A stretch of 35,097 bases of DNA from Eggerthellaceae bacterium. Its GTDB lineage: Bacteria; Actinomycetota; Coriobacteriia; Coriobacteriales; Eggerthellaceae. The notes under the pieces were generated by a model. The model was not told where the DNA came from, made no database searches, and saw nothing but the letters and a program-made list of their open reading frames with translations. The DNA is taken from the NCBI GenBank assembly GCA_017434045.1, contig JAFRGA010000053.1, forward strand, positions 1-35,097, in the 5' to 3' direction. A program made the position numbers and the translations under genes. This document shows positions 12,201 through 28,878 of this stretch, piece by piece (the stretch's first letter is position 1; each line of letters opens with the position of its first letter).

Positions 12201-12302
12201 ACTGTCCGTCCACGAGGGCTTCGTCGAAGGCCGCCGGCCGGCCCGATGGCGGCTCGCCCGGCCTGCATGAGGCCCCTTCGCGCTTTGGGGTTCGCCCGCC
12301 CG

Positions 12303-12483
12303 AAGGGGTTCGCCTACGGCCCTCCGGCGGTAATGGCTTCGCCCATACGCCGCATCGTTGCCCGCCTGCCGGGTTGTCCGTCCGGAGGGGTTCGCCTACA
12401 GCCCTCCGGCGGTAATGATCAGACTTGCACGCAACATCGTTGCCCGCCTGCGGAAGCGGCTCACCACTCCGGACGGACGACCC
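12303..12483 (+). repeat. GC-rich dispersed repeat, two tandem copies
   Basis: Two copies of a unit built on GGGGTTCGCCTAC(A/G)GC, followed by CCTCCGGCGGTAATG, start at 12305 and 12387, 82 bases apart. Each is followed by a shared CATCGTTGCCCGCCTGC tail. The stretch 12376-12472 recurs at 34827-34923 with one mismatch in 97 positions. No transposase or coding frame is associated with it. Another partial copy, inverted, lies at 13333-13348. Confidence 0.9.
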
Positions 12484-12613
12484 GGCAGAGGGATTTTGTA
12501 TTGGATTTCGAAAGGTCCGCCCGCCCGGCCCGATTTGGGTTCGGACCTTGCGCCGGCTCGCAGAGATTTGGGGGAATGCGCGAGAGGACGGCCGGGCGGC
12601 GGCCGGGCTGACG

Positions 12614-13289
12614 TGCACTTCGCCCTTATTCCTGCACGATGCCGTGCACTTCCCCGAAATCCTTGCATCGACGCGAACTCGTGCAAGGAAACAGGCGAAG
12701 TGCACGGATGCCTGCAAGGAAATGGCGGAAGTGCACGCCGAAACGGGCGTCTGGCGGGCCTTTTGACGTGCACTTCCCCCAAATCCTTGCACGAAATTGC
12801 GCTCCTGCAGGAAAACGTGCGAAGTGCACGGCTGCCTGCAAGGAATTGGTCGAAGTGCATGGCAGGGGTGCAACCAGCTGCAAGGAAACGTGCGAAGTGC
12901 ACGGCCGGCTGCAGGAAAAGCAGGGAAATGCACGACAAGGATGCGGCCAGCTGCAGAGAAATGGGCGAAGCGCGCGGCCGGCTGCAGGAAAAGCCGGGAA
13001 GTGCACGGCGGGGGTGCAACCAGCTGCAAGGAAACGGGCAAAGTGCACGGCCGGCTGCAGGAAAAGGGGAGAAGTGCACGCGAGCGTTAGAGCTAGGCCC
13101 TTTCCGTACATTTCCCCATCACCCCTGCACCTGGAAGATTTCATGCAAGGATAGGGGGGAAATGTACGACAACCTGCAGCGAAACGGGGGAAATGGGCGG
13201 AAAACCACGTGCCGCGCAGGTCGAAAACGTTCATTTCCAGCATATCTCTGCACGAGTTTTCCTACGTGCAGCAAATGCGGGGAACTGCA
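12614..13289. repeat. Ordered array of eighteen 23-bp TGCA-ended units
   Basis: Every unit is exactly 23 bp. In its forward sense it begins TGCA (18 of 18), has AA at positions 17-18 (18 of 18), and usually ends GAAGTGCA; the middle is variable. Forward units start at 12682, 12713, 12806, 12837, 12879, 12910, 12952, 12983, 13025, 13056, 13144, 13175 and 13267. Inverted units start at 12614, 12645, 12769, 13107 and 13230. Gaps are 8, 14 or 19 bases, except for three module junctions of 28-33 bases. The 14-base gap always separates an inverted unit from a forward one; 8-base gaps join members of same-orientation pairs; 19-base gaps join successive forward pairs. The steps of 31 and 42 bp are not compatible with one reading frame, so open frames here are by-products. 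No known element was recognised. Confidence 0.93.
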
Positions 13290-13332
13290 CGGAAAAGGCC
13301 GTGCGGGCCGGGCGTGCGGCCTTCCCGAGGAT

Positions 13333-15966: not shown

Positions 15967-16635
15967 ATGAATGCGAAAATGAAACGGCGCTTGGTTGCGG
16001 TGACAGGTATCATCGTCATCGTGCTCATCGCGGTCCTAGCCGTAGTGGGCGGCAATTCGGCTGCACGCACGGTTAGCGTTGCCGAGGCGATCGAGGTGCA
16101 AGACGACGCAAAGATCAAGGTCGAGGGGAATGTGGTCGAGAACTCGTTTTCCATCGATGGCGACGTGCTCGTATTCAAGATTTACGACAAGCAGAACGAT
16201 TCGCTGGCCGAGCACCAGCTTGAGGTGCGTTACGACGGAGGCGTTTCGGCTACGTTTGGAAACGACGTGACCGCTCAATGTACGGGCAAGAAGGATGCTG
16301 GGGGCGTGCTGAACTGCTCGGAGCTCGTGACCAAGTGCCCGTCGAAGTACGAAAGCGGCGTGGACGCCCTGACGGTGCCGGATCTGCTTGGATACGGCCA
16401 GAAGGTCGTCGATAAGCCGGTGAAGGTCGTTGGCACCGTCAAGACCGGCACGTTGGCTGGCGTGGACGCGGCCGAGCGCTTCGTGATCGTGGACGAGGGC
16501 AAGGGCGATGAGCTGCATGTCAAGTACGCTGGGGCCCTGTCGGACGATGCAGGCGAAGGGGCGACCGTCGTGTTGACCGGCTCAATAGGTTCCGACGGCC
16601 TGTTCACGGCAACCAATGTGTCATTGGAGGGCTAA
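15967..16635 (+). CDS. ccmE: CcmE, Cys-type heme chaperone with extra C-terminal domain
   Basis: A 222-residue protein with one N-terminal membrane span (about residues 8-28) and an extracytoplasmic OB-fold domain. CcmE accepts heme from CcmABCD, binds it covalently and passes it to the CcmF-containing lyase. Classical CcmE uses His in an HXXXY motif; here the equivalent is CPSKY at residues 124-128, the Cys-type variant known from some sulfate reducers and archaea. After it the protein continues for about 90 residues with a second OB-like pattern (KPVKVVGTVKTG, AERFVIVDEG, EGATVVLTGSIGSDGLF), which ordinary CcmE lacks. A GAGGCGG site precedes the ATG. It is separated from ccmF by 326 bp holding a large palindrome, so it may be transcribed separately or be subject to partial termination. 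Confidence 0.87.
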   Translation: MNAKMKRRLVAVTGIIVIVLIAVLAVVGGNSAARTVSVAEAIEVQDDAKIKVEGNVVENSFSIDGDVLVFKIYDKQNDSLAEHQLEVRYDGGVSATFGNDVTAQCTGKKDAGGVLNCSELVTKCPSKYESGVDALTVPDLLGYGQKVVDKPVKVVGTVKTGTLAGVDAAERFVIVDEGKGDELHVKYAGALSDDAGEGATVVLTGSIGSDGLFTATNVSLEG

Positions 16636-16961: not shown

Positions 16962-19130
16962 ATGGCCACCGTTGGCTTCGCGTTCCTCGCTATCGGCTTT
17001 GCCGCGGCAATTGCAGCGGCGACGTTGCTGTTAGCGGGCCATGTTTCCAAAAAGGCTGCCCTTTCCCGTATAGGCCGCATTTCGGTGCTCGCTGCCACGG
17101 TGGCGCTTCTCGTCTGCTGCCTCGTACTCGTCGTATGCTTCATGACCGGCGACGTCTCGATTCAGTACGTCCTCGAGGAACGCTCGTTATCCACCGATTC
17201 GCTGGCGTGGCTCTACAAGCTGTCGGGCTTGTGGGCTGGTCGCTCGGGCTCTCTTCTGTTCTGGACCTTCCTCATCGCATTGTTCGGCGCCCTCATCCTC
17301 GCGCGTTCGGGGTTGACCGTTTTCAAGGAGAAAACCGGGGGGAAAGGCCCCGACAGTTCACGTGCCTACCAGTTGGACAATCTTGCCATGGCCGTCGTGT
17401 CGGTTGTCGCTGCCGTGTTCTGCGGGGTGCTCCTGTTCTCGGAGGGCAGCATGCCCTTCACGCCCACGCCGTCCAATTACTTCGACGCGGATGGGAATCT
17501 GACGGCAATCGCGTCCACGTACTCGATGAACCAGCTGCTCGAGCATTGGGCCATGGCTATCCACCCGCCTCTGCTGTTCGTGGGCTATGCGGGCTTGACC
17601 GTGCCTTTTGCCTATGCCATGGCGACGCTCATCGCGAATGACGCATCCAAGCTGTGGGTGGAGCGCGCCACGCGCTTCGTGTTGGCGAGCTGGCTGTTCT
17701 TGGGCGCGGGTATCGGCCTTGGCGCCGTGTGGGCCTACGTCGTGCTCGGCTGGGGCGGCTACTGGGGTTGGGATCCGGTGGAAAACGCCAGCTTGCTCTC
17801 ATGGCTCGTCTGCGTGGCGCTCGTGCACACGTTCACGGTTTACCGGCAGCGTGGTGCGTTCAAGCGCTGGGCGGTCATGTGCGCGTGCTTGGCGTTCACG
17901 TTCGTCATCGTGGCCACGTTCATCACGCGTTCGGGCATCGTGCAATCGGTGCACGCCTTCGCGGGAGACCCGGTTTCGCTCGTGCTGTTCGGCGGGCTCA
18001 TCGCGGTGTCTATCGTTGTGCCCTTGATCGCCATCGTTGTGCGATGGAAGCTGTTCGGCTCCGACACCGAGGGTGGCGACGATGTCGAGAACATGCTGTC
18101 GAAAGATGCGGCGTACTACTTCAACAACGTCATCATGATAGTGTTCACGCTCCTGCTCACCTACATGACGCTGACTTCGGCCCTGCCCAAGTGGCTGCCG
18201 TTCGGGGGCGACTCGCTCGGCACGACGTCCTACGAGGCAATTGCGCGGCCGCTCGGCATTTTGTACCTGCTCATCCTGGCTATCTGCCCGCTTTTGGCTT
18301 GGGGGAAGACCGATCCGGGGAAGTTCCTGCGCCAGGCACGGATCCCAGGCGTATGCGCGGTCATCCTGTTCGCGCTTTTGGCGTTCTGGTGGGCGACGCA
18401 GTTCGTGCCGGTTTACGACGCCATGATGGCGAAGGGGAACGCCGCCTCGCAGGCCTTGCTCGAAGCGGGACCCGGCTGGTATTACAACGGCCTTGCGCTC
18501 GTCGGCCTGCTTGTGGCCAGCGTGCTGTTCTTCAACGCCCTGTTCATGTTCGTGCGTAACGTGAAGGTGCCAGGCAAGCGGGCGGCGGCCATCGGCGGAA
18601 GCTTCGCCCATATCGCCATGGGCGTCATCCTCGTGGGCCTCATCGGCTCGAACATGTACGTGTACGACCAGACGGGCTACATGGATTTCAATCCGGAAAC
18701 CAAGTCCGCCGAGCCTTTCAATGTACAGGAATACAGGCTGGAGTACGTGAGCGATTCGATCACAGACAATTCCGAGGTAAACAACACCGTCCTGTACGAG
18801 GTCGTGTTCGACGTGTACAAAAACGACCGCTATCTGGGCCAAGCGGCCCCGTCTATCCAGCTCGACGTGATGACGCAGCAGCAGAAGCTCAACGCGGCCG
18901 TCATCGGATCACCTGAGGAAGACCTGTTCGTCGTGTACCGCGGCGTCAACCAGAACGGTGATTTCTCGCTCGACGTGCGCGTGAACCAGTTCATCCTGTT
19001 CGTATGGGTGGGGTTCGGCATGCTGATGCTCGGCACGCTGTTCGCGCTCGTTGGCCGCAGGGCTCACAGACGTTCCGAAGATGAAGCGTCGAGCGTAACC
19101 TATTGCATTCCCCCCGATAAACAAGTATGA
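16962..19130 (+). CDS. ccmF: CcmF/NrfE-type cytochrome c heme lyase subunit
   Basis: A 722-residue polytopic membrane protein of the CcmF/CycK/NrfE family. The WWD heme-handling signature WGGYWGWDPVENAS lies at about residues 264-277. Before it are conserved blocks such as LWAGRSGSLLFWTF and HWAMAIHPPLLFVGY with a likely ligand His; after it come HTFTVYRQRGAFKRWA and FITRSGIVQSVHAF. About fourteen hydrophobic spans are seen, with a large extracytoplasmic segment near residues 590-690 before the last span. CcmF joins heme from CcmE to the CXXCH thiols of apocytochromes. An AAAGGA site fixes the start. It leads a tight set ccmF-ccmA-ccmB. Its clients probably include NrfA and NrfH in this window, but it cannot be told apart from a dedicated NrfE by sequence alone. 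Confidence 0.94.
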   Translation: MATVGFAFLAIGFAAAIAAATLLLAGHVSKKAALSRIGRISVLAATVALLVCCLVLVVCFMTGDVSIQYVLEERSLSTDSLAWLYKLSGLWAGRSGSLLFWTFLIALFGALILARSGLTVFKEKTGGKGPDSSRAYQLDNLAMAVVSVVAAVFCGVLLFSEGSMPFTPTPSNYFDADGNLTAIASTYSMNQLLEHWAMAIHPPLLFVGYAGLTVPFAYAMATLIANDASKLWVERATRFVLASWLFLGAGIGLGAVWAYVVLGWGGYWGWDPVENASLLSWLVCVALVHTFTVYRQRGAFKRWAVMCACLAFTFVIVATFITRSGIVQSVHAFAGDPVSLVLFGGLIAVSIVVPLIAIVVRWKLFGSDTEGGDDVENMLSKDAAYYFNNVIMIVFTLLLTYMTLTSALPKWLPFGGDSLGTTSYEAIARPLGILYLLILAICPLLAWGKTDPGKFLRQARIPGVCAVILFALLAFWWATQFVPVYDAMMAKGNAASQALLEAGPGWYYNGLALVGLLVASVLFFNALFMFVRNVKVPGKRAAAIGGSFAHIAMGVILVGLIGSNMYVYDQTGYMDFNPETKSAEPFNVQEYRLEYVSDSITDNSEVNNTVLYEVVFDVYKNDRYLGQAAPSIQLDVMTQQQKLNAAVIGSPEEDLFVVYRGVNQNGDFSLDVRVNQFILFVWVGFGMLMLGTLFALVGRRAHRRSEDEASSVTYCIPPDKQV

Positions 19131-28572: not shown

Positions 28573-28878
28573 TTGTTTCTTTCGGGTCTGTAGTTGAGGA
28601 ACGTCAAGTTCCAAGTCCATGGCAGATGCGGTCGAAAGGATCCACGTAAACCGGACGGCTTGCCGTCCGGCGAGCACGGCGCGTTCTAGGTGTAAGTCGC
28701 ATCGCCCGTTGATACACGGCATGGTGTCGTGGCGGGCGAGAGGGTGATGGTGAGTAGCTCAGCCCCGATGCGCGAGTGTGGGGTCGAAGACTAGGTCAGC
28801 CGGAGGAAACAAGCTGGCGCTTGGCGCCTGTGTATGGGAATTGAGCGCATCGGCGTTCGGAGATGGAGGTTTTTGAAC
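28573..28878 (+). promoter_or_regulatory. Structured leader upstream of the solute-binding lipoprotein gene
   Basis: An extended -10 element TGTTACACT at 28558-28566 would start an RNA near 28573 with a leader of about 300 bases. Strong stems are CCGGACGGC/GCCGTCCGG at 28651-28670, TCGCCCG/CGGGCGA at 28702-28739 and GGCGC/GCGCC at 28816-28828. GATGCG (28625), CGCATC (28698), CGATGCGC (28766) and GCGCATCG (28845) can pair in two mutually exclusive ways. It could be a riboswitch-like leader or an independent small RNA. No known riboswitch, SRP RNA, RNase P or tmRNA signature was recognised. Confidence 0.5.

Follow-up and report, generated by a model that had tools for sequence, protein, structure and literature searches.

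Intergenic arrays of a two-arm 25-bp motif at near-whole-turn spacing in Eggerthellaceae: a putative platform for a DNA-binding protein

Results

Organization of the array in the window

The window, a 35,097-nt stretch of contig JAFRGA010000053.1 from an Eggerthellaceae bacterium (assembly GCA_017434045.1, hereafter genome G000), contains an array of 18 short units at positions 12614-13289, or 12612-13291 if the outermost units are counted at the full 25 bp of the motif. All 18 units start with TGCA and carry AA at positions 17-18, as recorded in the initial annotation of this DNA. The gaps between consecutive units are, in order, 8, 14, 8, 33, 14, 8, 19, 8, 19, 8, 19, 8, 28, 14, 8, 32 and 14 bp; three junctions (33, 28 and 32 bp) deviate, and all remaining gaps are 8, 14 or 19 bp.

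The array opens with an outer unit on the minus strand (12614-12636), separated from unit 2 by a same-orientation step of 31 bp. It is followed by a five-unit core on the plus strand (12645-12828) with the arrangement O1(-) 14 I1(+) 8 M(+) 33 I2(-) 14 O2(+), in which two inverted pairs, or dyads, lie 124 bp apart. Dyad 1 (12645-12704) consists of units at 12645-12667 (minus) and 12682-12704 (plus) with a 14-bp gap, the middle unit M occupies 12713-12735 (plus), and dyad 2 (12769-12828) again joins a minus unit (12769-12791) to a plus unit (12806-12828) across 14 bp. Seven same-orientation units on the plus strand (12837-13078) start at 12837, 12879, 12910, 12952, 12983, 13025 and 13056, their steps alternating between 42 and 31 bp to give a 73-bp higher-order repeat. 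The tail (13107-13289, plus) is a diverged second copy of the core, with units at 13107(-), 13144(+), 13175(+), 13230(-) and 13267(+) separated by 14, 8, 32 and 14 bp; the same tail is also kept in L011, L012, L013, L016, L018 and L021.

Downstream of the array region, the plus strand of the window carries the cytochrome c maturation genes CcmE (15967-16635) and CcmF (16962-19130). A raiA RNA is located at 28577-28808 (plus; 138 bits against a gathering score of 101.3). An 82-bp G+C-rich repeat, separate from the arrays, is present in two tandem copies at 12288-12451; it has 42 matches in the source genome, often near arrays, and no match in 14 other species of the genus searched, and its reverse complement has GTAGG next to a possible hairpin.

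A 25-bp motif with two conserved arms

The pattern TGCANGGAAN6GAARTGCA, allowing up to 2 mismatches, occurred at 139 sites in G000 compared with 1 site for the reversed control, far beyond chance. Conservation extended past the 23-bp unit, with C at 94% and G at 96% of positions 24 and 25, respectively (157 units), which equals that of most positions from 1 to 23 and indicates a unit of ~25 bp whose terminal TGCA is not its boundary. The motif is thus better described as 25 bp long, with two conserved arms around a variable 6-bp core; in G000 it reads TGCAAGGAA-N6-GAAGTGCACG, and the second TGCA (positions 20-23) falls within the 3' arm. The 5' arm differs by species (TGCAAGGAA; TGGACGGAA/CTGACAGAA; TGGCAGGAT/CGGCATAAT), and the 3' arm GAAGTGC is common to all. 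Units of G002 begin with TGGACGGAA or NTGACAGAA and those of G013 with TGGCAGGAT or CGGCATAAT, each followed by GAAGTGC, and in neither genome does the 5' end contain TGCA. The original description of units of exactly 23 bp with TGCA ends therefore holds locally in the window, but not for the longer motif or for the 5' ends in G002 and G013.

Distribution of the arrays

Using patterns together with a sequence-only model, we found ~16 intergenic arrays in G000, a minimum count as some arrays stop at contig breaks; the intergenic status holds for the stretches read. The family was present in 4 of 15 genomes of the genus, namely G000, G002 (~14 arrays), G013 (~11) and G009 (one); searches of the 11 remaining species did not find it. 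The window array is accordingly no relic found once, and the many intergenic loci with a common spacing rule anticipated in the initial annotation were present in G000, G002 and G013. Outside the genus, no match was returned by the R1 model with stricter filters in 397 genomes of the order, only a weak partial match in G152 by the R2 search of 138 family genomes, and two matches in genome_contigs, at the level expected by chance. A UvrD tree placed the array-bearing species scattered rather than grouped, as a weakly supported single-gene tree in which the G012 row was pieced together from overlapping hits. A different near-perfect inverted repeat recurs in G007 (L092:5093-5171 and L093:4946-5050), with TGCACGGGAGGGGAGCAAGTGCA and its complement 7-17 bp beyond the arms.

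The cores of the four species are variations on one arrangement of dyads. Written as orientations and gaps, the recurring core is -14+8+33-14+ in G000, -14+18+22-14+ in G002, and -14+8+2-18-14+, with six units, in G013; the single G009 array, -29-14+33-8-14+, is the G000 core when reversed. Comparison of the middle units of G013 showed that its gap-8 unit is the one kept in G000 and its gap-18 unit the one kept in G002.

Spacing and helical phase

Across G000, same-orientation gaps were mostly 8 bp (54 cases) or 19 bp (25), divergent gaps were 14 bp in 36 of 39 cases, and convergent gaps were 33 bp (19 cases) or 28 bp (4). The 8/14/19-bp rule proposed initially thus describes the window apart from its three junctions, but is too narrow for the family, to which the recurrent 33-bp and the rarer 29-bp gaps also belong. 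All of these gaps, 33 and 29 included, make sense as whole helical turns, and the 28-bp tail junction is the true exception.

All four array-bearing species preserve the 60-bp inverted pair and its 14-bp gap. The dyad gap was 14 bp in 36 dyads of G000 and 17 of G002, never 13 or 15 bp, although on average 21-44% of linker positions varied from copy to copy. Dyad-to-dyad distances of 124, 123 or 134 bp and same-orientation steps of 31, 41-43 and 52-53 bp differ for the most part by whole helical turns. Since copies within one genome share descent, equal gaps within a genome are not independent observations. A phase fit that left a single contact point per unit free gave a helical repeat of 10.4 bp per turn and a contact point at 19.2, with a mean cosine of 0.75 over 11 spacing classes, the off-phase class included. 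Ten of the 11 classes lay within 0.13 turn of an integer, the steps of 43 and 53 bp being slightly off, and the 51-bp step at the 28-bp tail junction was half a turn out of phase. Random spacing sets matched this fit in ~1 in 1000 cases with 11 classes and 17 in 1000 when collapsed to 8, in a test with few classes, picked after inspection of the data, and with two parameters tuned alike for real and random sets. The fitted point lands in the conserved GTGC of the 3' arm, and one turn earlier lies the conserved GGAA. The earlier proposal of steps near whole turns on one DNA face was borne out in all four species, with the 3' arms on one face; save for the single 51-bp junction, this is the spacing expected of a cooperative nucleoprotein array.

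Constraint on arms and conservation of one locus

Among the main cores of G000, the mean pairwise difference was 8% in the arms compared with 32% in both the unit cores and the 14-bp linkers, so that the arms diverge ~4 times slower. The corresponding values in G002 were 15% (arms), 51% (unit cores) and 27% (linkers); the small set of tail copies gave a weaker pattern (6%, 4% and 23%).

G002 and G013 both have an array, oriented alike, in one intergenic region between orthologous genes whose proteins are 80-84% identical. Measured from the first dyad, its units start at 0, 37, 79, 124 and 161 in G002 and at 0, 37, 78, 134 and 171 in G013; the dyad units (0/37/124/161 against 0/37/134/171) differ by a single 10-bp shift. 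The linkers are hardly alignable between the two genomes, and the 5' arms carry in each case the type of their own genome. This is probably one array that kept its position through saturation of its linkers, with one whole-turn change. Two independent insertions could also have produced this coincidence, for which our own rough estimate of the chance expectation is ~0.1.

Genes flanking the arrays

Arrays are flanked by varied metabolic, transport and housekeeping genes or by genes without a Pfam match, and Pfam scans of flanking genes revealed no recurrent transposase or DNA-binding gene. Arrays of G000 showed no preference among tandem, divergent and convergent intergenic regions, and those of G002 avoided divergent regions (0 of 13) and favoured convergent ones, both counts being small and based on gene calls from a home-made finder. 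Two G002 arrays adjoin DUF559/Vsr-like genes (L083:2032-2985 and L128:5627-6652; 54% identical to each other); this family was rejected as the array partner, being common in array-less species and having no match in G000. At the window locus, a search of relatives for the empty site found EamA with the downstream synteny lost. A MITE or other non-autonomous transposon would have fixed terminal inverted repeats and a target-site duplication; the core of the arrays is an inverted structure, the array ends vary, and the relatives searched, too diverged or rearranged, yielded no clean empty site.

Several known element classes did not account for the arrays. Steps of 31, 37, 42 and 56 bp break any reading frame and speak against coding sequence, and the mixed orientation, the gaps of 8-33 bp and the variable unit cores do not fit a CRISPR array. 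A known RNA was discarded after Rfam gave only sub-threshold microRNA-like matches, as was a plasmid iteron or centromere, given intergenic loci beside unrelated metabolic genes and no match to the arrays in plasmid and phage collections or in a viral_contigs scan.

Discussion

The motif, the geometry, the constraint on arms and spacing and the distribution, all read directly from the genomes, would probably be best explained by arrays that serve as a binding platform for a putative two-domain DNA-binding protein, whose preferred 5' arm changed between species. Each array would be a stretch of double-stranded DNA to which a single sequence-specific protein binds in many copies. The protein would recognise two blocks of the 25-bp motif (positions 1-9 and 16-25), which share a face of the helix at a distance of about one turn, probably through two DNA-binding domains of one polypeptide. 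Whole-turn spacing would set nearly every motif on the same face, and bound proteins could thus make contact and assemble into a continuous or looped complex. The fixed nucleus of this complex would be the inverted 60-bp dyads, two per core and 12-13 turns apart, extended by a variable run of flanking motifs. When the preferred 5' arm of the protein changed, all arrays of a genome would have followed, consistent with the same architecture in four species despite different 5' arms. The dispersed, intergenic and patchy occurrence in the genus suggests that the arrays spread or were lost as interspersed elements. The predicted protein may self-associate and act by bridging or condensing DNA, or by mobilising the element. 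Counting against the platform are the lack of a recurrent binding-protein gene beside the arrays and the out-of-phase 28-bp tail junction, and the bias of G002 arrays to convergent regions might indicate a function in transcripts.

The dispersal of homologous copies, their patchy presence on the weak, single-gene UvrD tree and the finding of just one position common to two species would also suit a non-autonomous mobile element, with dyads and flanking motifs as end sites bound by a transposase or recombinase, mobilised in trans and without host function; bipartite 25-bp sites with inverted symmetry would fit such an enzyme. We regard this reading as unlikely, since no cargo genes lie between paired arrays, no transposase recurs next to them, the variable number of units leaves the ends unfixed, and the arms are constrained at dispersed copies, unexpected for dead copies. 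Spread of a REP/BIME family by a RAYT (IS200-like) transposase is largely refuted and very improbable. The arrays do form intergenic, species-specific mosaics of regularly spaced units in both orientations, as REP/BIME elements do, and Y1 transposases occur in 12 of 15 species of the genus, but no array lies beside the Y1 genes examined in G000, G002 and G013, and G009 has an array without a Y1 match at the cut-off. Moreover, REP units are imperfect palindromes mostly tagged with GTAG or CGTC, whereas the units profiled in three species have two unlike arms and lack a tag, and palindromic ends are missing in G002 and G013.

The initial annotation had suggested selection on DNA or RNA geometry, as in a cooperative protein array or a structured RNA. 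The first alternative gained indirect support from the whole-turn steps and from arms conserved against drifting cores and linkers; the second was not supported. Transcribed inverted units would form hairpins ending or stabilising mRNAs, like REP at gene 3' ends, and the dyads indeed fold well as RNA (z -2.9 to -6.1), overall covariation in a mixed-species alignment exceeds that of shuffles, and the gene orientation around G002 arrays points the same way. Yet much of this covariation lies in the arms, whose letters are common to the units of one genome and change from species to species throughout, on both strands and in every copy. Of 50 sequences, 14-31 leave the core positions unpaired, roughly half of the copies, and the cores of the two arms of a dyad do not covary. 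Among 20 core-identity tests (10 unit pairs in each of two genomes) a single one reached p = 0.01, for I1 with O2 in G000, which is no evidence of pairing given the number of tests and the same orientation of these two units. Same-orientation runs likewise cannot pair with each other, whole-turn spacing is meaningless for RNA, no Rfam family reached its gathering score in the array, and G000 showed no gene-orientation preference. A structured RNA or transcript-end element is accordingly quite improbable.

Returning to the protein platform, the arrays offer a natural example in which DNA geometry is better preserved than sequence. They make a clean system for studying the joint change of a protein and its many sites, and a route to an architectural or mobilising protein in poorly studied gut bacteria. 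Literature searches limited to open-access papers turned up no description of such arrays for this bacterial group, and the arrays and their putative protein appear undescribed so far. A more tentative extension is that Eggerthellaceae may possess a chromosome-organising system new to science. In it, a putative self-assembling DNA-binding protein would act on 1-16 arrays scattered over each genome, with a conserved symmetric nucleus, and its recognition sequence would turn over between species with no change in the three-dimensional geometry of the complex.

On our best reading of the sequences, the arrays would work like a cooperative nucleoprotein array and look like a bacterial interspersed mosaic element. 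BIMEs act as protein-binding sites for IHF and gyrase (PMC2817692). With the BIMEs and REP sequences of enterobacteria, Pseudomonas and Stenotrophomonas, the arrays share intergenic, species-specific mosaics of short units in alternating orientation at regular spacing, but they differ in their two-arm units, variable core and mostly whole-turn spacing. The ends of multi-site transposons (Mu, Tn7, IS21) contain several bipartite sites of 22-25 bp in fixed orientation and spacing, and the bipartite sites of the arrays, similarly fixed, would likewise suit a two-domain DNA-binding protein; unlike these ends, the arrays come without cargo or transposase, at 1-16 per genome, with a variable number of units and a symmetric two-dyad core. 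Plasmid iterons and ParR sites are helically spaced repeats to which one protein binds cooperatively; the arrays have the same helical spacing, but are chromosomal, occupy many loci and are mixed in orientation.
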